Notes: generated from the sequence alone by a model not told the origin. A stretch of 37,245 nucleotides of DNA from Gammaproteobacteria bacterium (GCA_030040715.1 JASHTF010000089.1:1-37245), one strand, 5' to 3'; counted from the stretch's first letter, positions 2,065-33,140 are shown. Numbers and translations: made by a program.

Positions 2065-2574
2065 GTGCACGGCATCGTGAGCGATCTGGGTGGGGCAATA
2101 GACGTCGCGTCGAAGGTGGGGCAGGGAACGCGGTTCGATATCTGGCTGCCGGTGGCAGGCGAGGCGGCAACGCCGGCCCTCGAGCCGTTCCGCGCAGTGC
2201 CTCTTGGCCATGGACAAGTCGTCATGGTTGTCGACGACGAGCGCGCGCTGGTGGGGCTCGCCGAAGAGAGCATCGCTCGACTCGGCTACGAGCCAGTCGG
2301 ATTTGACTCCAGTCTGGCGGCGCTGCAGGCGTTTCGAGCCGCTCCGCATCGCTTCGACGTGGTCCTCACCGACGAGTCGATGCCAGATCTGGTCGGTACC
2401 GAACTCGCAAAAGAGATCCGGACTCTTCGGCCGTCCGTGCCGATCATTCTGATGACGGGATTTGGCGGCGTACAGCTCGCCAGCCGCGGAGCCGATGTGG
2501 GTGTCAACGAGATCCTGCGCAAGCCGCTGCGCAGCCGTGACCTCGCCGAGTCGCTTGCGCGCGCGTTGGCGTAG
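2065..2574 (+). CDS. C-terminal part of the same hybrid kinase: end of HATPase plus receiver domain
   Basis: In frame with 55..2061. VHGIVSDLGGAIDVASKVGQGTRFDIWLPV is a typical HATPase end, followed by a receiver (VMVVDDE, VVLTDESMPD, ILRKPL). Confidence 0.8.
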   Translation: MHGIVSDLGGAIDVASKVGQGTRFDIWLPVAGEAATPALEPFRAVPLGHGQVVMVVDDERALVGLAEESIARLGYEPVGFDSSLAALQAFRAAPHRFDVVLTDESMPDLVGTELAKEIRTLRPSVPIILMTGFGGVQLASRGADVGVNEILRKPLRSRDLAESLARALA

Positions 2575-2579
2575 CGCAG

Positions 2580-3326
2580 GTGACCTCAGTCGTGAGCAGT
2601 TTGGATGTGGTCCGTCCGCGCATATTGGTCGTTGATGACGACCCGCAAATTCGGGCGTTGTTGACGGAGTATCTCGGAGAGAGCGGTCTACGCGTCAGCT
2701 CCGCAGCCGACAGTCAGCAAATGACTCAGATCTTGACCGACGAGGCGATCGATCTGGTGGTTTTGGATCTGCGTCTCGGGGGTGAAGATGGCATGGCGAT
2801 CGCGCGCTGTCTGCGTAGCCAGAACGCGATCCCGATCATCCTGCTTACGGGGTTACGAGATGAGGCCGATCGCGTGATCGGGCTTGAGCTCGGTGCCGAC
2901 GACTACGTGACCAAACCCTTCAGTCCGCGTGAGCTACTGGCGCGCATTCGCGCAGTACTGCGGCGCGCCGGGGGCGCTGGCGCAGGTCCAGAACAGCGCG
3001 AGCCTCGAGCGTACCGATTTGGAGAATTCGAGCTCAACGTACGTACCCGGCGGCTTAAGCGAGCGGATGGTCGAAACTTGTCCCTTACCAACGGCGAATT
3101 CAATCTGCTCGCTGCTCTGGTGGCAGCTCCGCAGCGCGTTCTGACGCGAGATCAATTGCTCGAAGCGAGTCGTGTGCACGACAACGAAGTCTATGATCGC
3201 GCGATCGACATTCAGGTGCTGCGATTGCGACGCAAGATAGAGACAGACCCCGCACAGCCGCAGTATATCGTGACGGAACGTGGCGTCGGCTATATCTTCA
3301 ACGCCGCAGTGGAAGTAATCTACTGA
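2580..3326 (+). CDS. OmpR/PhoB-family response regulator
   Basis: Receiver ILVVDDDPQIRALL / LVVLDLRLGGEDG / GADDYVTKPFSPRELLARIRAVLRR plus C-terminal winged helix (LTNGEFNLLAALVAAPQRVLTRDQLLE, VLRLRRKIETDPAQPQYIVTERGVGYIF). Confidence 0.93.
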   Translation: MTSVVSSLDVVRPRILVVDDDPQIRALLTEYLGESGLRVSSAADSQQMTQILTDEAIDLVVLDLRLGGEDGMAIARCLRSQNAIPIILLTGLRDEADRVIGLELGADDYVTKPFSPRELLARIRAVLRRAGGAGAGPEQREPRAYRFGEFELNVRTRRLKRADGRNLSLTNGEFNLLAALVAAPQRVLTRDQLLEASRVHDNEVYDRAIDIQVLRLRRKIETDPAQPQYIVTERGVGYIFNAAVEVIY

Positions 3327-3500
3327 ATGCAGCGCGGAGGATATCAGTTTCATTGGATTGTTTGTCGGTCTGCAGCAGCCGGTCCGGAAACAATCTGGTC
3401 GGTAATTGTCCGAGCGAGATCGTCAATCGAGCGATCGGACGCCACCCCCATCCGCCCCCACGTCCATGGCAAACAGGTTCTCGAAACAGGCGGAGGTGTG

Positions 3501-4004
3501 ATGCAGCCTTGGACACAATTTTACGCCGCGATCGGCACCGCCTCTGCGGCGCTGCTCGGTCTTTTGTTTGTTGCGGTCTCAATCAACGTTTCAGCGGCAT
3601 TTGGCCCTGACGAGGCGGTTTCCAGGCGACTGACGGAACAGGCCTTCCAGAATTATCTTGCGGTAATGATGGTGGCGTTTTTGGCACTGTTTCCCGGCAT
3701 CGAAACGACGACCTTCGGTATGGTCACCCTGATCACCACGGCCGGTTGGTCAATCTGGGTGGTGATCAGATTTTGGCAGACGCTCGCCCAACGTCTGGAA
3801 CGGCGGTCATGGATCTACTCCGTACGACGACACGTGGCGTCACTGAGCGGGTTTGTGATCCTGTTGGTCGCGGCGTTTCGCATGGCCCTGAACCGAGGTG
3901 CGTCCTACGACCTGCTCGCGTCCGCAACCCTGGTCCTGTTGTTCTCGGCGACTACGGTGTCCTGGGAGTTGCTGAGGCGCATCGCAAAGCGCCGCTCGGG
4001 GTAA
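3501..4004 (+). CDS. Small integral membrane protein, unknown function
   Basis: ORF 3327..4004; likely start ATG 3501 (MQPWTQFYAAIGTASAALLGLLFVAVSI) after GGAGGTGTG. Several hydrophobic segments. Confidence 0.7.
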   Translation: MQPWTQFYAAIGTASAALLGLLFVAVSINVSAAFGPDEAVSRRLTEQAFQNYLAVMMVAFLALFPGIETTTFGMVTLITTAGWSIWVVIRFWQTLAQRLERRSWIYSVRRHVASLSGFVILLVAAFRMALNRGASYDLLASATLVLLFSATTVSWELLRRIAKRRSG

Positions 4005-4178
4005 TGCCCAGCTCAGGCACTGACTGCCTGGTCTGCGATCACTCGGAGCCACGAAGACGCGGCCGACTGGTCGGGGTCAGACAGTGCTACGCTTCACGGA
4101 GCGTGGGGCCGCATCGCAGTGCGACGGCGCTGCGGGCGCAAGACCCGCGTACTGTCTCTTCGGCTTGAGGACTGTCGC

Positions 4179-4898
4179 ATGCCCGATGTTAGCGCGCGCA
4201 ATTACCCTGTCGGTACGCTCAACCGTGTGAAACGCCGTCCGGATCGGGGCCATTACGATCACGAGACGGTGCACCGACTGCTCGACGCGGCGGCTCTCGC
4301 TCACGTGTCTTACGTCGTCGACGGCTGGCCGTTTTGCACGCCCACGCTTTTCTGGCGCGAGCACCAACGGCTTTACTGGCACGGCAGCAACTCGAGCCGG
4401 ATGCTGAAGAGTGTCTCCAGCGGCCAACGTGCATGCCTCACGGTCACACACTTTGACAGCCTCGTGCTCGCGCGCTGTGGTTTCAACCATTCGGCCGACT
4501 ATCGGTCGGTGATGGCATTTGGTTGCGCGCGTCTTGTCGACGACCTTGCCGAGAAGCGACAGGCGCTCAAAATGATGGTAGATCGGCTGTTCCCGAATCG
4601 GACGGCCTTGCTGCGCCAATCGACCGAACAGGAGATAAACGCGACGACGGTGGTAGCGATGGACATCGAGCGGGCCTCCGCGAAGATCCGGTGCAAAGGC
4701 GTCGTCGATGAGGAGGGTGACTATGCTCTGCCGATCTATGCGGAGCGCATCCCGCTGACGCTCGTCTGCGGTGTTCCGGAGCCCTGTCCGCGCCTGCTAC
4801 AAGGCGTGCAGCGCCCGATCGGCCTCGAACAGTATCGTGACGGTAACCCGCTTGAGACCGCGGTGCTCGCCGCGCACCGGTCAACATACCGTGACTGA
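4179..4898 (+). CDS. Pyridoxamine 5'-phosphate oxidase-family (FMN split-barrel) protein
   Basis: VKRRPDRGHYDHETVHRLLDAAALAHVSYVVDGWPFCTPTLFWREHQRLYWHGSNSSRMLK matches the nitroimidazole-resistance/PNPOx-like pattern. Start ATG 4179. Confidence 0.85.
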   Translation: MPDVSARNYPVGTLNRVKRRPDRGHYDHETVHRLLDAAALAHVSYVVDGWPFCTPTLFWREHQRLYWHGSNSSRMLKSVSSGQRACLTVTHFDSLVLARCGFNHSADYRSVMAFGCARLVDDLAEKRQALKMMVDRLFPNRTALLRQSTEQEINATTVVAMDIERASAKIRCKGVVDEEGDYALPIYAERIPLTLVCGVPEPCPRLLQGVQRPIGLEQYRDGNPLETAVLAAHRSTYRD

Positions 4899-4983
4899 GA
4901 AACCCCGCAGGCGTGGATCATGACGAGAAGCGCACCAGCGTATTGGTCTGCGTCGGGGATAAACAGTGCGGCCGCCACCGCGC

Positions 4984-7194
4984 TCAACGTCTACGCCGCA
5001 GCGCCTTTGCGCGCCTGCGAGCGCTACGGCGAGGCGCCGCCGGCGTCCGCGGTAGACCGGTGTGCTGGGTGCGGAAGGGCCGGCTGTTCGCGGGCGTGCG
5101 GTGACCTTCGCCTTGCCGGTCGGTACCGGACGGCCGGTGGGCGGGTACCAGCTGATGCTTACCGCTGCCGATCAGATCCGCGCGCCCCATGTGGCGCAGT
5201 GCTTCGCGCAGAACCGGCCAGTTATTGGGGTCGTGATAGCGCAGGAACGCCTTGTGCAGTCGCCGCACCCGCAGTCCCTTCGGTATGGCTACGGTCTCAC
5301 TGTCCCGCGTGATACGCCGGAGCGGATTCTTGCCGCTGTGGTACATCGCGGTCGCGGTCGCCATCGGCGACGGTAGGAACGCCTGCACCTGATCGGCGCG
5401 GTAGCCGTTGCGCTTGAGCCATAGCGCGAGCTCGAGCATGTCCTGATCGCTCGTGCCCGGGTGCGCGGCGATGAAGTAAGGAATCAGGTACTGCTCTTTG
5501 CCCGCATGCTTGGAATAGCGATCGAACAGCTCCTTGAAGCGGTAGTAGCTGCCGACCCCAGGCTTCATCATCTTCGACAGCGGCCCCTCGGCGATGTGCT
5601 CGGGCGCGATCTTAAGATACCCGCCGACGTGGTGCTCGGCGAGCTCGCGCACGTACTCGGGCGATTCGACCGCCAGGTCGTAGCGCACGCCGGATGCGAT
5701 CAGGACTTTCTTGATGCCGGGCAGTGCGCGCGCCTTGCGATAGAGCTCAATCAACGACGAGTGATCGGTGTTCAGATTAGGGCAGATGCCCGGAAACACG
5801 CACGACGGCCGGCGGCACGCGCTCTCGATCTCGCGACTCTTGCAGGCGAGCCTATACATGTTCGCGGTCGGGCCGCCGAGGTCCGAGATCACGCCGGTGA
5901 AGCCCGGCACCGTGTCGCGGATCTGTTCGATCTCGCGCAGCACCGACGCCTCCGAACGGCTCTGAATGATGCGACCCTCGTGCTCAGTGATCGAGCAGAA
6001 CGTGCAGCCGCCGAAGCAGCCGCGCTGAATCGCGACCGAGAAGCGAATCATCTTGTAGGCGGGGATCTGGGCGCTGCCGTAGCTCGGATGCGGCCGACGC
6101 TGGAACGGCAGGCCATAAACCCAATCCATCTCCGCAGTCGTCAACGGAATCGGGGGCGGATTGAGCCAAACGTCCTGGGAGCCGTGCCGCTGCACCAGTG
6201 CGCGCGCATTGCCCGGGTTCGACTCGAGATGCAGGATGCGCGAGGCGTGTGCATACAATACCGCATCGTTCGCCGCCTGCTCGTAGCTCGGCAGGCGAAT
6301 CACGCTGCGCTCGCGCTCGCTGTTGCGCACGCGGCGCATGAAGCGCACAACCTGTGCGCCCGAGGCATCCCTCGCTGCCGGTGCCGCTGACACTCCAGCG
6401 TCAGGGGCGAGCGCAGGACTCACAGCGTACGGATCTACGGGCGGCGCCACGGGCCCCGGCGCCTCGAGGTGCGTCGAATCGATCTCGATCCACGCGCCGT
6501 CCAGTCGGCGCCCGGCAAATACGGTGCCGCGCACATCGCGGATGTCCTCGAGGCGCTCACCGGCCGCCATACGCCGGGCGATCTCACAGATCGCGCGCTC
6601 ACCGTTGCCGTAGACCAGCAGGTCCGCCTTGGCATCGAGCAGCACCGAGCGCCGTACTTTCTCCGACCAGTAGTCGAAGTGGGCAATGCGCCGTAGCGAG
6701 GCCTCGATGCCGCCAATCACCACCGAAACGCCGCGATAGGCTTCGCGTGCGCGCTGCGCGTAGACGATCACCGAGCGGTCCGGCCGCCGCCCAGCCTCGC
6801 CACCGGGCGTGTAAGCATCGTCGCTGCGAACGCGCCGGTCCGCTGTGTAGCGATTGACCATCGAGTCCATGTTGCCAGCCGTGATACCAAAGAACAGGCG
6901 CGGCGGCCCGAGCGCGCGAAATGCCTCGGGACTGCGCCAGTCCGGTTGCGCGATGATGCCAACGCGTAGCCCCTGCGCCTCGAGAACGCGGCCGATGATC
7001 GCCATACCGAAGCTGGGGTGGTCCACATAGGCGTCGCCGGTGACGATGATCACGTCGCATTGGACCCAGCCGAGGGCAAACATTTCGGAGCGCGACATGG
7101 GAAGGAACGGTGCTGCAGCGTCTCGGCGCGCAACGGCGTTGGGACGAACGTCATCCGGGATATGGAGACTGCGCAGATCAGGTGCTGGGAGCAT
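4984..7194 (-). CDS. ygiQ: YgiQ-family radical SAM protein
   Basis: CxxxCxxC motif in [20 protein letters not shown]-terminus [34 protein letters not shown] and [19 protein letters not shown] typical of YgiQ/UPF0313. Confidence 0.93.
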
Positions 7195-7214
7195 CGGAGG
7201 GGATTATAGAAGGT

Positions 7215-22226: not shown

Positions 22227-23003
22227 CTATCCGGCCTGCGCGCTGGTCCGAAGGAGTTGCTTGAGCGCACGCAATTCCTGCCAACTGGTATCGGAGACGG
22301 CGCAGTAGTCGAGATCTCCCGCTCTCCAGAATGTCATGTGATACCCACTACGGGTGGTATCGGTAGGTAGGAGCGTTTTGGACGCAAGCCAGGCAAACAC
22401 ATTAATCACATGCCGCCCGTGCTGATACACAACAACCGCGGACCGCTGGCCTCCGAGGTAATCGGCACGACCGCCAATGAGGCGGTAACCGTCTCGCTCG
22501 AAATCTGCCACCACCGGTGAGACATCGGTGTGTCCCGCGAACCAGGGTTTCACCGTGTGCTGATCGGTTGACACAACATCGATCAGATGCGACGGCATCA
22601 GAGACCTCACCTGATCTACCGTCAGATCATGTAGTAGAGTGTCGCTTACCGACGGCGACATTGCCGGTACTGCAATAAGCGCTACCACTGCACTGGCTGC
22701 GACACCGCTAAAGGCACCCGTCCAAAACGGATTCCATCTCCATCGGGTGCGTTCCGAGACGGAACGACTTGCGCGAGCCGCTCGGTCCTCACGCTCTAGA
22801 ATGCGATCAATCTGCTCCCTTAGCGCCGTAGGCGCAGGCTCCGAAGGGATCTGGCGAGTCATTGTGCGCACGTGCTCTAGATCCTGAAGCCTGCCGCGGC
22901 AGCTCGGGCACCGCCCCAGATGGCGCTCGATCTCTAATGAGGAGCTCGCGTCGAGCTCGCCGTCGAAATAGGCCTGCGTGCGGAGTGACTCAGGGCAATC
23001 CAT
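22227..23003 (-). CDS. Anti-sigma factor (zinc-finger, single TM)
   Basis: AYFDGELDASSSLEIERHLGRCPSCRGRLQDLE then [24 protein letters not shown]; overlaps the ECF gene by 14 nt. Confidence 0.88.
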   Translation of the reverse strand: MDCPESLRTQAYFDGELDASSSLEIERHLGRCPSCRGRLQDLEHVRTMTRQIPSEPAPTALREQIDRILEREDRAARASRSVSERTRWRWNPFWTGAFSGVAASAVVALIAVPAMSPSVSDTLLHDLTVDQVRSLMPSHLIDVVSTDQHTVKPWFAGHTDVSPVVADFERDGYRLIGGRADYLGGQRSAVVVYQHGRHVINVFAWLASKTLLPTDTTRSGYHMTFWRAGDLDYCAVSDTSWQELRALKQLLRTSAQAG

Positions 23004-23559
23004 GGACGCCTCTCGGGACTTGCTCTTCCCAGTGACTCTTAAGCACTGCCCTGGCGCGAGCCAGCCGCGACATCACGGTGCCAATCGGCACACCAATGAT
23101 CTCCGCTATGTCGCGGTACCTCATGTCGTCGATCTCTCGCAACACCAGCACTTCCCGATGCTCGACCGAGAGTCGAGCCAGTAGGCGCTCCAGTGTACGC
23201 TCCTCATCTCGTTGCATAGTCAGACGCTCCGGATCCGCAGGTGCCGCCATCTCTGCATTCAGCTCGGGGGCATGATCTCGCTCGGACAGCTCAATGAAGC
23301 CTCGACGCTGTTCCTGCTGGTACGCCGTCGCATGGCAGTTGCGCACGATGGTCAGCAGCCAAGCCTTTACATCAGTACCGCGCAGTCCTTCAAAACCGCG
23401 GTAAGCTCGAAGCATCGCCTCCTGCACGATGTCCTGGGCGTCGCTCCTGGAATTCCCGAGCCAGCGCGCAAACCGATACGCAGCATCGAGGTGCGGTAGC
23501 ACCTGTGCTTCGAAGCGCTCATGCGTTGCATGCATTCGTGACATTTGACCGGAGTTCAA
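22990..23559 (-). CDS. ECF-family RNA polymerase sigma factor
   Basis: LPHLDAAYRFARWLGNSRSDAQDIVQEAMLRAYRGFEGLRGTDVKAWLLTIVRNC ... LSVEHREVLVLREIDDMRYRDIAEIIGVPIGTVMSRLARARAVLK. Confidence 0.93.
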   Translation of the reverse strand: MNSGQMSRMHATHERFEAQVLPHLDAAYRFARWLGNSRSDAQDIVQEAMLRAYRGFEGLRGTDVKAWLLTIVRNCHATAYQQEQRRGFIELSERDHAPELNAEMAAPADPERLTMQRDEERTLERLLARLSVEHREVLVLREIDDMRYRDIAEIIGVPIGTVMSRLARARAVLKSHWEEQVPRGVHGLP

Positions 23560-23956: not shown

Positions 23957-26353
<2,397 letters not shown>

Positions 26354-26422: not shown

Positions 26423-27202
26423 ATGGCTTCAGGTTCGCAGATGCGAAGGTTACAGGCCGCGATGCGCATGCGAGCCGCGAACCGCCACTATCTCGGCAGC
26501 CTGTTGCAGCTCATTGCCCTCACGGCTCTCCCGTGGTCCTTGTGCTCGGCCGATGGACCGTGGAGCGCCTCGATCGCTGCCACCACAGACTACGTTTTCC
26601 ACGGTATCTCCCAGACGTATGACCGCGGGGCGGTGCAGATCGGCGCTAATTACCAGGATCCGCAGGACTGGTTCGTTGGCATCTGGGGCTCGAACGTGGA
26701 CCCGTATCCGCTCGCGGCTTCGGCGGTGGAGTTGGATCTGTATGCGGGCATCAGCCGGCCGCTCGGCGGAGATTTCAACGCCACGCTCACCTACACACGC
26801 TACCAATACGTGGATGATCCGCGGCCGGCTCGATACGACTACGATGAGCTGCAACTGTCGGCGAGCTATCTGGATCGGCTCAGCGGGAGCATCTCCTATC
26901 AGCCTGACCTCACGCAGTACTCCGAGCTCGGCCTCGCGCAACACAAATCAAGCCTGGACTATGAGCTCGCCGCGCGATGGCCGCTGCCTATGGGATTAGC
27001 TGTCGGCGGTGGGATCGGCTACTACGATCTGCAGCGCCTGTTCGGGGTGAGCTATTGGGCAGCAGACCTCGCCGTGCGCTATGTCTATCGCCGCGTGAGC
27101 CTGGAGCTGACCCGGTTCTTTGCCGCTTCGAACGCGTCGCGCCTGTACGACGACGCCAGCGCGAATGGTACCTGGGTGTTGACGGCTTCGTTCCGGTATT
27201 GA
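26423..27202 (+). CDS. TorF-family (TIGR02001-like) putative porin
   Basis: WSASIAATTDYVFHGISQTYDRGAVQIGANYQDPQDWFVGIWGSNVD ... ELDLYAGISRPLGGDFNATLTYTRYQY ... terminal aromatic FRY. Confidence 0.85.
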   Translation: MASGSQMRRLQAAMRMRAANRHYLGSLLQLIALTALPWSLCSADGPWSASIAATTDYVFHGISQTYDRGAVQIGANYQDPQDWFVGIWGSNVDPYPLAASAVELDLYAGISRPLGGDFNATLTYTRYQYVDDPRPARYDYDELQLSASYLDRLSGSISYQPDLTQYSELGLAQHKSSLDYELAARWPLPMGLAVGGGIGYYDLQRLFGVSYWAADLAVRYVYRRVSLELTRFFAASNASRLYDDASANGTWVLTASFRY

Positions 27203-27307: not shown

Positions 27308-27910
27308 TTGAATTATGGTGACCTGAGTAGTGAAGCAGCCAGAGCGGGATCGATCGGCAACGATCTGGACCGCGAGCTGCTGCAACGCGTGAGCGCCGGA
27401 GATCGCAATGCGTTTCGCGACCTCTACCTGCGCTATCACCGCCGCTTGGCGCGGTTTCTCACCCGCTTGACGAAGCGGTACGAGGACGCAGAGGAAATCA
27501 TCAATGACACGCTGTTGGTTGTCTGGCAGCGCGCGGGGGAATTTCGCAACGCCTCACGCGTATCGACCTGGATCACGGGCATCGCCTACCGGCGTGCGCT
27601 GAACATGATCCGACGCGCCAGCACCCACGAGCGCGCGATGCGATTGGAAATTGCCGAGGAAGAACCCTCGGTGAGCGACAATGCTCAGGTACTCGAGCAG
27701 TGCCAGCTACTCGATTTCGGGCTGGCGCAGCTGCCACTCGAGCAGCGGCTGGTGCTTGAGTTCACCTACTACCTTGATCATTCGTGCGAGGAGATCGCGG
27801 AGATCATGGATTGCCCTGTCAACACCGTAAAAACCCGTATGTTCAATGCCCGGCGCAAGCTGCGAGCCATCCTCAGCGATGGGTCGGAGGCGGAGAGGCG
27901 CTATGGATGA
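27308..27910 (+). CDS. ECF-family RNA polymerase sigma factor
   Basis: RVSAGDRNAFRDLYLRYHRRLARFLTRLTKRYEDAEEIINDTLLVVWQRAGEFRNASRVSTWITGIAYRRALN ... LPLEQRLVLEFTYYLDHSCEEIAEIMDCPVNTVKTRMFNARRKLR. Confidence 0.93.
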   Translation: MNYGDLSSEAARAGSIGNDLDRELLQRVSAGDRNAFRDLYLRYHRRLARFLTRLTKRYEDAEEIINDTLLVVWQRAGEFRNASRVSTWITGIAYRRALNMIRRASTHERAMRLEIAEEEPSVSDNAQVLEQCQLLDFGLAQLPLEQRLVLEFTYYLDHSCEEIAEIMDCPVNTVKTRMFNARRKLRAILSDGSEAERRYG

Positions 27911-28601
27911 CTGCGCTGCGAATCGCCGATGCGATGACGAGGCGGCGCGGCTGCTGCCGTGGTACGTGACCGCGCGGCTGAATGCAGAGGATACCCAACG
28001 CGTCGCGCGCCATCTGGAGCGCTGCGCGATCTGTCGGGACGACCTCACCCAGGAACGCTCGCTGCGCGCACTGCTGAAATCAGCTTCTTCTCTGGACTAT
28101 GCGCCCCAGCCAGGATTGGCCAAGACGCTCGAGCGCCTCGGTGAGCTCGAGCGCGAGGCGCCGCTCGCTGCCCCCAGCGCCGTACGCCGCGCTCCGGTGC
28201 GAGCGCATCGATTTGGCGCTGTGCACTGGATCGCGGCCGCAGCGCTGGTCGAGGCCGTCGCACTGGGCGCCATGGGCACCTCGTTGCTGCATCGCTCCGC
28301 TCAGGTGGAGCAGGAACCGCGGTACACGACCATGTCCTCGGCTTCAGCACCCGTGGCACCTGGCTCACGCATCCGCGTGGTCTTCTCGTCCCGCATGTCG
28401 CTCGCCGCGCTGCAAAGCCTGCTGGCCCAGTATGGCCTGACCCTGGTTCGTGGTCCGAGTGATGCGGGGGCCTATACCCTAGCCTTCACCGACTCCCGCG
28501 CGGCGGCTCAGCGCCTGAATCCGACCGTTGCCGCGCTGCGCCGCGACGCACGCGTGACGTTTGCTGAACCCGCAGTGCTCGACGAGGGCGGTGGATGGTG
28601 A
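27903..28601 (+). CDS. Anti-sigma factor (zf-HC2, single TM) with a C-terminal protease-prodomain-like segment
   Basis: LLPWYVTARLNAEDTQRVARHLERCAICRDDL; TM WIAAAALVEAVALGAMGTSLL; C-terminal IRVVFSSRMSLAALQSLLAQYGLTLVRGPSDAGAYTLAF...VAALRRDARVTFAEPAV. Start overlaps the sigma stop. Confidence 0.85.
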   Translation: MDDCAANRRCDDEAARLLPWYVTARLNAEDTQRVARHLERCAICRDDLTQERSLRALLKSASSLDYAPQPGLAKTLERLGELEREAPLAAPSAVRRAPVRAHRFGAVHWIAAAALVEAVALGAMGTSLLHRSAQVEQEPRYTTMSSASAPVAPGSRIRVVFSSRMSLAALQSLLAQYGLTLVRGPSDAGAYTLAFTDSRAAAQRLNPTVAALRRDARVTFAEPAVLDEGGGW

Positions 28602-29851
28602 GAGGGCTCGCCGCCCTGCTCGCACTGTGTGCCGCAGCGTGCAGCTCCGGTCCGCCGCTGCGTTCGGGCGCCACGCTGCCCGCCGCGGCGCGCGACTCTC
28701 CGCAGCGCTACATCGTCGTCACGGTTCGAAATCCCGTGAGCATGTCCCGCGCCGCTTCCACGCCTCGGGGCTACGACGGCGCCGGTGCCTATACGGTGGG
28801 AGGCGTCGCCCGCTCGCTGAGCCGCGCCCTGGCCAAAGACTACGGGCTGAAGGAAAGCGCCAGCTGGCCGATCGCCCTATTGAGTGTGCACTGCTTGGTG
28901 TACCAGCTACCTGCCGACACCGATCAGTCGCGCTCGCTCGCCGCATTGAGGCGTGATGCGCGGGTGGAATCGGCACAACCGCTGCTCGTCTTCAAGACCG
29001 CGGGTGAGCGCTATAACGATCCGTATGCGAGCTTGCAACACAACGTGCAGGAAATGGGCGTCGCGGAAGCTCAAACCTTCAGCCGTGGGGCTGGAGTGCG
29101 CGTCGCGGTCATCGACACCGGCGTGCAGGTCGATCACCCGGATCTGCCGACTCACGTCGTCACACGCAATTTCGTCGATAACGACCCGCGCGCCTTTAGT
29201 GCCGATGCGCACGGCACGGCGATCGCGGGGGTGATCGCCGCCGTGCCCGACAATGGCATCGGCATCGTCGGCATTGCTCCCGCCGTCTCGCTGCTGGCGT
29301 ATAAGGCCTGCTGGCAACTCACAGCGGCGGGCGTGCAGGCGGCCTGCAATAGCTTTACCCTCGCCCAGGCGCTCGCTGCCGCGATCGAGGCGCGCGCTGA
29401 CGTCATCAACCTCAGCCTCGCCGGTCCAAGCGATCCGCTGCTGTCGCGGCTCATCAGGCGCGCCTTGGACTCAGGGATCATCGTCGTGGGCGCGGTTTCG
29501 TCAGACGGCGTTCGCAACGCCTTTCCTACCGGCATCGCGGGCGTCATCGCAGCGGATGCGATCGAGAACGGTCATCGGGGCACGGACGTCATACTTGCCC
29601 CGGGGCGCAGTGTCATGTCGCTCGCCCCGCAGGGCCACTATGACTTTTATTCAGGCAGCTCGCTCGCGACCGCGGAAGTGACCAGCGTAGTGGCGCTACT
29701 GCGATCGCAACGCGCTCACTTGAGCGGCCAGCAGGCGGCTGCGGTGTTGAGCGCGGCCGCTGCTGCTCAACCCGGCGCACAACCGCCCGTTCCCAACGCC
29801 TGTACGGCGCTCGATCTGCTGTTGCACAAGAACCTCTGCAGCGGCAGCTGA
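28595..29851 (+). CDS. S8-family subtilisin-like serine protease, predicted lipoprotein
   Basis: Lipobox-like LCAAACSS; Asp VAVIDTGVQVDHPD; His DAHGTAIAGVIAA; Ser YSGSSLATAEVTSVVALL. 7-nt overlap with the anti-sigma gene. Confidence 0.9.
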   Translation: MVRGLAALLALCAAACSSGPPLRSGATLPAAARDSPQRYIVVTVRNPVSMSRAASTPRGYDGAGAYTVGGVARSLSRALAKDYGLKESASWPIALLSVHCLVYQLPADTDQSRSLAALRRDARVESAQPLLVFKTAGERYNDPYASLQHNVQEMGVAEAQTFSRGAGVRVAVIDTGVQVDHPDLPTHVVTRNFVDNDPRAFSADAHGTAIAGVIAAVPDNGIGIVGIAPAVSLLAYKACWQLTAAGVQAACNSFTLAQALAAAIEARADVINLSLAGPSDPLLSRLIRRALDSGIIVVGAVSSDGVRNAFPTGIAGVIAADAIENGHRGTDVILAPGRSVMSLAPQGHYDFYSGSSLATAEVTSVVALLRSQRAHLSGQQAAAVLSAAAAAQPGAQPPVPNACTALDLLLHKNLCSGS

Positions 29852-30109: not shown

Positions 30110-31330
30110 TCAGTTAGCGCCATAGGGATTGGCGGGCGGAGTCGGATTGGCGGTGCTCGTCATCGAGATACTGCCGAACACTCCATCGGTCTGGTCAGCA
30201 AATCCAGCCGTGTAGAACAGCGTGGTCAGAGGTTTGTCCGGATCACCATTGCCAAAGGTCAGACTCCAAAGGCCCGGAACGCTGAAAGTTCCGCCATTCG
30301 TGACCGAGAGGTGACCCTCATAGGTGGCGAGCGACCCATCGGGCGTGAAGATGTTGATGGTGCCGTCCCCGAAATTGCCGATCAGCACGTCCCCGGCGAT
30401 CGAGCCGAAGCCGGACGGTGCTACCGCGATACCCCACGGGGCATTGAGCGCACCGGCTGATGCAAATCTGCTGACAAAGTTACCGCTGAAATCAAATACG
30501 TCCACGTAGCCCAGACCAGCCCCCGTGACCTCATCGTGCATGGCCGCATCCTGCATGGCGAAAGTGACGTACAACTGCCCATTCACCGCCGCGATACCAA
30601 ACGGCACGAAGCCCGCCGGAATCGTGGGATCAATGAACTTACCCTGCATCGCTGCAGGCTTGGAGAAGCTGCTATCGAACACGTCGACTTTATTATTGTG
30701 CAGGTCGGTCGCATAGAGATAGGTTGCGCCGCTAACGGTGCCGATGGCGAGGCCCTTGTAGACCGCGTGCTGAGTGCCGTTGGAGAGGCCATCGTCATAG
30801 GCGGTGACTGCGGTAGCGCCGCTGTCCTGTGCCCAGGCGGCGATGGTTCCGCCCTCGCCGTCGAACATGAATAGCGCCGTCTCCGAGCCATTGGGGGTCG
30901 GAATGAGAAAGCCGCCGCTACCGTTGTAGACCTGACCAGTCGGATTGGACTGCACCCCGGCGGCCGAGGACGGAATCGTAATCCCGACGCTGTTGGAGCC
31001 GGTGACGGTGCCAGTCTCGATCTGTCCAGTACCACTGTAGAGGGTCGAGAGGTTACTGTTGTTGTCGGCGATCCAAAAGGGCAGTCCCGGAGCGACGGCA
31101 ATGCCCCAGGGATTCTGCAGGTTGGCGTCGATGGTGGTCGCGCTGGCGACCACGGTGGTGTTATCCGCTACCAATGCGGTGTCGGTGAACGATGAGGTGG
31201 CCGGGGGGTCCGACATACTGCTGGTAGTGCCACTGCCGCCGCTCCCGCCGCCGCCGCATCCGGCCACTGTCACGACGCAGATGACGCCGAGCGCGATTGG
31301 CGCTGCGGCTCTAATACGATGCAAGTTCAT
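30110..31330 (-). CDS. TIGR03118-family exported protein (beta-propeller-like, lipobox-like signal)
   Basis: MNLHRIRAAAPIALGVICVVTVAGCGGGG; LQNPWGIAVAPGLPFWIADNNSNLSTLYSG ... YLYATDLHNNKVDVFDSSF ... LNAPWGIAVAPSGFGSIAGDVLIGNFGDGTINIF. Confidence 0.85.
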   Translation of the reverse strand: MNLHRIRAAAPIALGVICVVTVAGCGGGGSGGSGTTSSMSDPPATSSFTDTALVADNTTVVASATTIDANLQNPWGIAVAPGLPFWIADNNSNLSTLYSGTGQIETGTVTGSNSVGITIPSSAAGVQSNPTGQVYNGSGGFLIPTPNGSETALFMFDGEGGTIAAWAQDSGATAVTAYDDGLSNGTQHAVYKGLAIGTVSGATYLYATDLHNNKVDVFDSSFSKPAAMQGKFIDPTIPAGFVPFGIAAVNGQLYVTFAMQDAAMHDEVTGAGLGYVDVFDFSGNFVSRFASAGALNAPWGIAVAPSGFGSIAGDVLIGNFGDGTINIFTPDGSLATYEGHLSVTNGGTFSVPGLWSLTFGNGDPDKPLTTLFYTAGFADQTDGVFGSISMTSTANPTPPANPYGAN

Positions 31331-31839
31331 TGTGCTCTCCATGGTTGAACAGAGTTGATCGCCCATGAGTAACACCTGACGAACGGAAGGTTCTTCGCGG
31401 CGCGCTAGGTATTTAGTGCTTCAGGATGCGGTCAGTCTGAAAGCCACCGCTGCACCTGTTCAGAGAACCATGGCGTCGGCCTGGTTGAACAACGAGCTAG
31501 AGGATAGGGTTAAATCCCGGGGCGCATCGATAGATGAGATTGTTCCATCGCAGCGATGTAACAGATCGATCGCGGTATTTGCGCTTTTCTCTCACGACCT
31601 GAAAACCTTGGCTGCGCGATCGGGTACTCATGACCGAAAGCGCAAGCTGCGCATCCTCTGTCGCCTCGGCTCGATCGTTTGTCGATCGGCCTTTACATCG
31701 ACGATGCCAGCCCCTCACGAGCCCGCGATGGCTCGCGTCACGATTCATTGTCAAATTATGTATGGCCGGAGTCGCGGGCCAAGGAATAAATATGTGCCAG
31801 GCGCGGTCCTCTGTGACGAAATCCCAAATGGAGCCTCCC

Positions 31840-32799
31840 ATGTCGAACGATCAGCCCAGTCGCTCCCGTCGCAACGCCCTTAAGTGCCTCGCCTATGGTG
31901 GGGCCGGTACGGTCTTCGCGCTCACGGGCGGTGTTTTAACCCCGATCGATCTAGCCGTCGCCGCTGACAAGACTCGTGGCTCAAAGATGGGGCGGCCCTT
32001 CTTTGTCCAGATCAGCGACACCCATATCGGATTCAATAAGCCTGCCAACCCGGACGTAGGCGCGACCCTGACGCGTAGCATCGAGCTCGTGAATTCGATG
32101 AGCATCCGGCCGCAGCTCATTATCCATACCGGCGACATCACTCATTTGTCGAGACCCGAGGAGTTCGATACGGCCGAGCAACTGCTCTCGCAACTGGCCG
32201 TATCCGAGCTGCACACGGTCCCAGGCGAGCATGATGTCGCCGACACGACCGTCTCCGAATACTTTAATCGCTTTGGCAAGGCCTCGAACAACAAGGGCTA
32301 TTACAGCTTCGATCACGCCGGTGTTCACTTCATGGCACTGATCAACGTGCTGCATTTCAAGCCGGGTGGGCTGGGTGCCCTCGGCGCCGAGCAGCTCCGG
32401 TGGGTGAACGACGACCTGCGCGGCCAATCTGCCAGCACGCCGATCGTCGTGTTCGCGCATATGCCCCTCTGGAGCATCTATGAGCCGTGGGGCTGGGGAA
32501 CCGGGGACGCTCGGCTGCTTATCGAGCAACTACGACGGTTTGGTTCTGTGACGATCCTGAACGGGCACATCCACCAGATCGTGCAGAAAGTGGAAGGCAA
32601 TATCACCTTTCACACCGCGCGCTCGACTGCCTATCCGCAGCCTGAGCCTGGCGTCGGCCCGGGTCCGGGTCCACTGGTGGTGGCATCTGACCAATTGCCC
32701 GCGCGGCTGGGCATCACAACCGTGTCATCGATCAAGCATCACCTGTCGCCGGGTGATAGCACGCTGGCGGACGCCTCAGGCGTCGCGGGTGGCGTATGA
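31840..32799 (+). CDS. Tat-exported metallophosphoesterase
   Basis: Tat-like SRRNALKCLAYGGAGTVFALTGG; FVQISDTHIG, HTGDITH, PGEHD, VFAHMPLW, LNGHIHQ. Alternative start 31828. Confidence 0.88.
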   Translation: MSNDQPSRSRRNALKCLAYGGAGTVFALTGGVLTPIDLAVAADKTRGSKMGRPFFVQISDTHIGFNKPANPDVGATLTRSIELVNSMSIRPQLIIHTGDITHLSRPEEFDTAEQLLSQLAVSELHTVPGEHDVADTTVSEYFNRFGKASNNKGYYSFDHAGVHFMALINVLHFKPGGLGALGAEQLRWVNDDLRGQSASTPIVVFAHMPLWSIYEPWGWGTGDARLLIEQLRRFGSVTILNGHIHQIVQKVEGNITFHTARSTAYPQPEPGVGPGPGPLVVASDQLPARLGITTVSSIKHHLSPGDSTLADASGVAGGV

Positions 32800-33140
32800 G
32801 GATTCCAAGGTCCCGCGTCGCACTCGCGTTCGTCGGAGCGCTGCTGCTGATTGTGGCGCTCTACACCCGAGTCGCAAGCGCTGATGAGACGGCGCCGGCG
32901 CAGATTGTGATGAAAGACTTTAAATTCACACCGATGTCCCTGACCGTCAAGGCCGGAACGACCGTGACGTGGGCCAACAAGGATGATGAGCCGCACACGG
33001 TTACGAGCGACAGTGGGCTGTTTCGTTCCGGGGCGATTGATACCGACGGCACCTACAGCTTTCGGTTCGAACGTCCTGGAACGTACCATTTTACTTGCTC
33101 GATACATCCGCAAATGGTCGGCACGCTCGTCGTGCAGTGA
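32796..33140 (+). CDS. Cupredoxin (plastocyanin/amicyanin-like) exported copper protein
   Basis: QIVMKDFKFTPMSLTVKAGTTVTWANKDDEPHTVTSD ... GTYHFTCSIHPQMVGTLVVQ (type-1 Cu His, Cys-x2-His-x2-Met). ATGA overlap with the metallophosphoesterase. Confidence 0.9.
   Translation: MRIPRSRVALAFVGALLLIVALYTRVASADETAPAQIVMKDFKFTPMSLTVKAGTTVTWANKDDEPHTVTSDSGLFRSGAIDTDGTYSFRFERPGTYHFTCSIHPQMVGTLVVQ

Follow-up and report, generated by a model that had tools for sequence, protein, structure and literature searches.

The ECF sigma factor, membrane anti-sigma factor, and S8 (subtilase) protease encoded at 27308–29851 of the window form a trio that is conserved across the Pseudomonadota and reaches the Acidobacteriota, and the anti-sigma factor ends, on its periplasmic side, in a domain that we take to be a homologue of the subtilase prodomain. 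The module probably acts as a sigma-release device: The S8 protein would be the dedicated site-1 protease, its anti-sigma substrate would mimic the pro-sequence of the enzyme, and cleavage would start the release of sigma. The window is the whole stretch of DNA that was analyzed (37,245 nucleotides from a gammaproteobacterial genome; GCA_030040715.1, JASHTF010000089.1:1-37245). The prodomain idea goes back to an earlier note on this DNA; the analysis adds to it a fourth component of the module and a likely site of cleavage.

Gene Layout and Distribution of the Module

The module comprises the following genes, domains, and sites.

26423–27202 (+): putative outer-membrane porin of the TorF/Gcw_chp family (TIGR02001, E 1.2e-26; PF09694, E 1.6e-18)
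27308–27910 (+): ECF sigma factor with Sigma70 regions r2 and r4_2, TTG start (Pfam PF04542, E 1e-12; PF08281, E 1.9e-14)
27903–28601 (+): membrane anti-sigma factor with a cytoplasmic zinc-binding domain, one transmembrane (TM) helix (approximately residues 106–135), a periplasmic linker, and a prodomain-like domain
28323–28337 (+): anti-sigma juxtamembrane motif Y141-T-T-M-S145 (P4–P1'), proposed site-1 cleavage site (motif conservation and protease-junction matrix)
28365–28574 (+): prodomain-like C-terminal domain of the anti-sigma factor, residues 155–224, β-α-β-β-α-β (AlphaFold, Foldseek, PF22148, hhalign)
28595–29851 (+): S8 (subtilase) protease with an exported or lipoprotein-like N-terminus (PF00082, E 5.2e-27)
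28700–28981 (+): the protease's own prodomain, residues 36–129, β-α-β-β-α-β (AlphaFold; aligned to the pro-subtilisin E propeptide)
28991–29005 (+): predicted prodomain/mature junction of the protease, F133-K-T-A-G137 (P4–P1'; alignment to pro-subtilisin E, aromatic P4)
29087–29764 (+): subtilase catalytic domain with the triad D174 (29114–29116), H206 (29210–29212), and S356 (29660–29662)

The sigma and anti-sigma genes overlap by 8 bases (27903–27910) and the anti-sigma and S8 genes by 7 (28595–28601), as the earlier note had reported. Its reading of the three genes as one unit is to be corrected slightly, in that the unit starts one gene before sigma, with the TorF/Gcw_chp gene. This putative porin is a conserved fourth gene of the module: In 55 loci it is the same-strand gene immediately 5' of sigma, and most of the remaining 44 have it at another place in the locus. 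In the Oxalobacteraceae loci it lies directly 3' of S8; near the alphaproteobacterial cassettes examined, it was not found. The window porin scores 93.8 bits and is above the TIGR02001 cut-off of 47.15; the true start of its gene is probably a few codons 3' of the called start. A search for an ECF promoter motif 5' of the module found none.

To describe the distribution of the module, we searched from both of its ends. The anti-sigma query found homologues in 44 of 148 related genomes, and all 26 of the fetched loci that are not cut by a contig end have the sigma gene upstream and an S8 gene immediately downstream. An HMM of the anti-sigma C-terminal domain alone matched 38 of 399 Pseudomonadota genomes (about 1 in 10), with an S8 gene adjoining in 27 of the 30 loci fetched, which gives an adjacent S8 gene in 53 of 56 loci for both anti-sigma-side searches together. 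From the protease side, a search with an alignment of the family over GTDB genomes returned 80 loci from the Gamma-, Beta-, and Alphaproteobacteria, the Acidobacteriota, and the Desulfobulbaceae, most of them with sigma and an anti-sigma factor carrying this C-terminal domain directly 5'. The S8 linkage of the prodomain-like anti-sigma factor is near-obligatory over a large phylogenetic distance; homologues of the anti-sigma C-terminus sit mostly beside an S8 gene, the outcome of the neighborhood survey on which the earlier note had staked its proposal.

Two of the loci lacking S8 (L150 and L155) have in its position a gene that, judged by eye from its sequence, is caspase-like (C14); the anti-sigma-type proteins and caspase-like genes are at 4165–5019 (−) with 4968–5612 (−) in L150 and at 4859–7213 with 4038–5198 in L155. 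These two proteins, together with the membership of the porin gene in the module, speak for a reading in which the anti-sigma domain is related to prodomains by descent and fold only and now senses a different cue, such as the TorF porin; S8 would then be a regulated effector and not the trigger. The near-obligatory S8 linkage over so large a phylogenetic distance and the site motif common to anti-sigma factor and protease (see below) both count against such a sensor, which we consider very improbable.

Further arrangements were observed in single loci and around the module itself. In L153, which has no sigma gene, the gene of a secreted S8 protease (3134–4906, −) adjoins that of a small protein (4944–5459, −) that stands alone, looks like a lipoprotein, and has a prodomain-like domain; this small protein is possibly a separate inhibitor or chaperone. 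In L103, two tandem S8 genes (458–2320 and 2251–4023) follow an anti-sigma factor with the domain; the S8 family may duplicate. The genome of the window has a second sigma/anti-sigma/S8 cassette, apparently divided between two contigs (L003 and L002). The window also encodes an unrelated second ECF sigma/anti-sigma pair (22227–23559, −) beside a katG-like gene (23975–26353), and the anti-sigma factor of this pair gave no prodomain-like match. Just 3' of the module, the genes of a calcineurin-like phosphoesterase and of a cupredoxin overlap (31630–33140); neither is a general neighbor of the cassette. A TIGR03118 family protein with a weak NHL repeat match (30110–31375, −, in the window) accompanies the cassette in 14 of the fetched loci, among them L002, L038, L082, L085, L086, L088, L093, and L097.

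A Prodomain-Like Domain in a Class I Anti-Sigma Factor

The anti-sigma factor is a class I (zinc-binding) membrane anti-sigma factor: It is encoded next to its ECF sigma, residues H37, C41, and C44 (H-x3-C-x2-C) are invariant, all 30 members match zf-HC2, and ChrR and RsiW are among its PDB profile matches. The zinc motif is missing from some alphaproteobacterial members. The window protein itself gives weak Pfam matches to zf-HC2 and to the fervidolysin N-terminal prodomain.

The earlier note had seen a resemblance between a segment of the anti-sigma C-terminus and one of the protease N-terminal region. The anti-sigma factor does contain the quoted VAALRRDARVTFAEPAVL and the protease the quoted LAALRRDARVESAQPLLVF; the two peptides correspond to the α2-β4 unit of a β-α-β-β-α-β fold. 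The resemblance goes beyond chance: When a profile of the anti-sigma C-terminal domains (30 sequences) is compared with one of the protease N-terminal regions (26 sequences), the match has a probability of 90%, an E-value of 1.5e-6, and a score of 36.6, against at most 21.5 for 100 column shuffles. Wider alignments (88 vs. 26) match over 59 columns with an E-value of 1.9e-6 (hhalign), shuffles reaching no more than 2% probability and the sigma and porin profiles used as controls giving no score.

The predicted structures agree with the profiles. AlphaFold gives β-α-β-β-α-β for each segment, where the earlier note had allowed that they might adopt unrelated folds. The anti-sigma elements (pLDDT mostly 84–98) are strands 156–161, 179–183, 190–195, and 218–224 and helices 167–176 and 198–214; those of the protease prodomain are strands 39–45, 86–93, 98–104, and 126–129 and helices 70–82 and 111–120. 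The top PDB matches of the anti-sigma domain in Foldseek include 3cnq_P (a subtilisin propeptide), the PC1/3 prodomain, pro-subtilisin E (3whi), and 1spb_P, and the five best structures are all subtilisin or convertase prodomains or pro-subtilisin. It should be noted that the E-values are weak (0.012–0.02), as expected for a domain of only about 70 residues, and that unrelated ferredoxin-like folds score nearly as well.

The Pfam family Fervidolysin_NPro-like (PF22148) matches 44 of 88 anti-sigma domains at E ≤ 0.1, with a best E-value of 1.9e-7; the domain of the window protein (E 0.0058) is below the cut-off, with 17.4 against 21 bits. With the anti-sigma domain as the sole query, the PDB profiles gave weak matches only, of which 8c4z (annotated as an extracellular serine proteinase) is consistent with the assignment and is not significant. 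From the profile match, AlphaFold, Foldseek, and Pfam, we take the periplasmic domain to be a subtilase-prodomain homologue, and the proposal of the earlier note is in this respect supported. A recent duplication of the neighboring protease's prodomain is not favored as the origin of the domain, given that PF22148 matches the anti-sigma domain and not the protease prodomain.

The match first noticed covers only about 18 residues, and a short alpha-beta segment might match by chance in GC-rich proteins full of Ala and Arg. Chance is already refuted by the shuffle, fold, and conservation controls, with shuffled profiles never near the observed score, folds that agree for both segments, and conservation over 88 divergent domains, and we regard its probability as negligible.

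A Juxtamembrane Motif Resembling the Predicted Protease Maturation Junction

The linker between TM helix and prodomain-like domain differs from member to member in both length and sequence, and a single motif in it stands out as conserved. Its strict form, [YF]-x-T-[LVMAI]-[ST], is found in 77 of 132 nonidentical linkers (mean 0.78 and maximum 4 for shuffled linkers), usually 11–16 residues N-terminal to the domain, and most of the other linkers have a looser form such as YRALG, FQTAS, or FEIAG. The motif stretch is modeled with low confidence by AlphaFold and is probably flexible.

By its residues, the motif is similar to the predicted maturation site of the protease itself, [FY]-x-T-L-[AGS]. 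The P1 position of this junction is 7 residues past the Q-P that ends the last prodomain strand; in a gap-free alignment it coincides with the C-terminal residue of the pro-subtilisin E propeptide. P4 is aromatic in 105 of 106 members, which could be a general property of subtilases of this kind, and is followed by x, mostly T/V/A at P2, L/M/R/Q/Y at P1, and A/G/S/T at P1'. A position matrix was built from protease junctions only, leaving out close relatives of each test case; with this matrix the anti-sigma motif region is the best match in the whole periplasmic part of 105 of 130 proteins, against some 11 that would be expected if only position counted, but column-permuted matrices also find the region fairly often (mean 40, maximum 89 of 130), so that part of the matrix signal is composition. 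The deep alphaproteobacterial cassettes fit the shared pattern less well, with YTLQQ at the junction and FEIAG in the linker.

The segment of the anti-sigma factor that would correspond in position to the protease junction is its C-terminal tail, which was considered as the inserted or cut segment and set aside as the principal site: The tail extends only 2–22 residues (median 7) past the last strand, is unconserved, and has no aromatic residue at the P4-equivalent position in any of 105 proteins. The cut site predicted from the sequences is likely the conserved juxtamembrane motif, on the opposite side of the domain from the tail; in effect, it would have changed sides, from C-terminal to N-terminal of the prodomain fold. 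Because first strand and last strand adjoin in a β-α-β-β-α-β topology, a site on either side of the domain could reach an active site.

The end of the tail corresponds roughly to that of a processed propeptide in the active site, which also fits a different function: The domain might inhibit or chaperone the protease in trans (as a stand-alone I9-like domain), in which case S8 binding would report the level or state of the protease to sigma and S8 would not cleave the anti-sigma factor. The prodomain fold of the domain is compatible with this, propeptides inhibit their cognate subtilases in trans (PMC10580911), and L153 offers a free-standing prodomain-like lipoprotein beside an S8 gene. Inhibition or chaperoning is nevertheless unlikely in our view: The tails are unconserved and without the aromatic P4, and the conserved juxtamembrane site, which copies the protease junction, would be left unexplained.

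Residue covariation between the anti-sigma and protease sites was also considered. It is strong in the raw and 55%-clustered sets; own pairs do no better than pairs with the nearest relative's protease, and the covariation was set aside as explained by shared ancestry.

An S8 Protease with an Intact Triad and an Altered Oxyanion Hole

The S8 protein finds its best PDB profile match in thermitase (E 5.7e-50), and its AlphaFold model is most similar to unprocessed pro-subtilisin E (3whi; Foldseek E 2.3e-23). The description as a lipoprotease in the earlier note is apt for part of the family, in which 47 of 108 members have a canonical lipobox, and less so for the window protein, whose lipobox (AAAC) is noncanonical. 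Of 108 members, about 105 retain Cys239 and Cys251, which may possibly form a disulfide; Cys100, in the prodomain, is retained in 101 of 111.

The catalytic triad is kept in every member covering the respective position (D174 in 108 of 108, H206 in 108 of 108, S356 in 107 of 107). The usual oxyanion-hole Asn is replaced in the window protein, which reads VVGAVSSDG against VVAAAGNAG (AAGN) in thermitase, and protease activity can therefore not be assumed. Almost no beta- or gammaproteobacterial member has this Asn. It occurs in the cassettes that are most distant (L103, L111–L114, and the alphaproteobacterial loci) and in an S8 paralogue from the window's genome that is not part of a cassette (L004). 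Because the distant cassettes keep the Asn, the association of the genes is probably older than its loss.

With the oxyanion Asn gone from most members, S8 could be a near-dead pseudo-enzyme, which would bind the anti-sigma motif as a pseudosubstrate and serve as a binding sensor, with another protease making the site-1 cut. This seems improbable to us, as D, H, and S are invariant in all members that cover them, unlike in typical pseudoproteases, and the most distant cassettes keep the normal Asn along with sigma, anti-sigma, and S8. In human PC1/3 without the oxyanion Asn, removal of the prodomain persists, at a slower rate, and activity on other substrates is abolished (PMC4182778). By this parallel, which is no proof, a protease specialized for and restricted to prodomain-like presentation is plausible. 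The invariance of the triad despite the loss of the Asn also speaks for the release model given below.

A Model for Sigma Release

The reading of the module as a sigma-release device, which we regard as the probable one, can be put as a series of steps. The anti-sigma factor would hold the ECF sigma at the inner membrane, with a periplasmic part that would mimic the S8 pro-sequence through a prodomain-like docking domain and a replica of the enzyme's maturation site (Y-x-T-L|S). These two would stand in reverse order, with the site ahead of the domain in the anti-sigma factor and behind it in the protease. S8 would mature by cutting its own F-x-T-L|A/S junction, in the window protein predictably behind A136, and then, as the mature enzyme, dock on the prodomain-like domain of the anti-sigma factor. 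From the shared site motif, S8 is predicted to be the site-1 protease of its cognate anti-sigma factor and would cut at the motif near the membrane; in the window's anti-sigma factor, the cut would fall after M144.

We infer that a site-2 protease such as RseP would then release sigma. RseP homologues score above the cut-off in 25 of 30 relatives; a search of the window's own MAG, which is 85% complete, did not find one. Without the oxyanion Asn, most S8 members would cut poorly unless the substrate is presented like their own prodomain. The TorF-like porin is probably either a sensor partner or a regulated output of the sigma system and would be the best candidate for the signal or the regulon.

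A more general formulation, which we offer tentatively and hold with less confidence than the release device itself, is that of a signaling protease narrowed to substrates presented like its own pro-sequence. The anti-sigma factor might then be a rearranged mimic of that sequence, sigma release might amount to zymogen maturation in trans, and loss of the Asn might be part of the narrowing.

If true, the model would add a widespread mechanism by which ECF sigma factors are released: A subtilase of the same operon would act on an anti-sigma substrate that imitates the pro-sequence of the enzyme. The cut site, being predicted to the residue, is directly testable. The module is also a natural case for what a subtilase can do without the oxyanion Asn, and it gives the uncharacterized TorF/Gcw_chp porin family a regulatory context.

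Comparison with Known Systems

The open literature that was searched holds no description of the module and no experiment on it; a group defined by genome context in a large ECF reclassification could still include it. The general scheme would be that of regulated intramembrane proteolysis of anti-sigma factors (PMC10202637). As in the DegS-RseA-RseP pathway of sigma-E, there is a single-pass anti-sigma factor with a zinc-type or class I domain, a periplasmic site-1 cut is proposed near the membrane, and RseP homologues are available. The proposed site-1 protease differs, being a subtilase of the same operon and not an S1C PDZ protease, and docking is proposed to occur via a prodomain-like domain instead of PDZ/RseB control.

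With subtilase prodomains and I9-type inhibitors (the subtilisin propeptide, fervidolysin/PF22148, POIA1), the anti-sigma domain shares the β-α-β-β-α-β fold and a sequence profile ending in L-x-x-D-x-x-V-x-x-x-E/Q. Unlike these, it is part of a membrane anti-sigma factor, whose periplasmic end it makes up, and its proposed cut-site motif is N-terminal to the domain, whereas the C-terminal tail is without the motif.

The nearest published statement concerns the ECF54-type sigma factors of the Actinobacteria, which have subtilase, carboxypeptidase, and CHAT genes nearby, for which proteolytic control was proposed, and which are described as acting without an anti-sigma factor (PMC8999054). Both systems encode an ECF sigma near a subtilase; the module described here differs in having a dedicated anti-sigma factor with a prodomain-like domain and in belonging to a mainly pseudomonadotal lineage. 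In the RsiV/sigma-V and FecIR-type systems, the extracytoplasmic domain of the anti-sigma factor determines the signal, as a direct receptor, and in the case of FecA the gene of an outer-membrane protein is linked. The module would share with them an extracytoplasmic anti-sigma domain that sets the signal, and it shares the linked outer-membrane protein gene; it is unlike them in its anti-sigma domain, which is similar to a protease prodomain, and in its linked gene, which encodes a TorF-like putative porin and not a TonB-dependent receptor.
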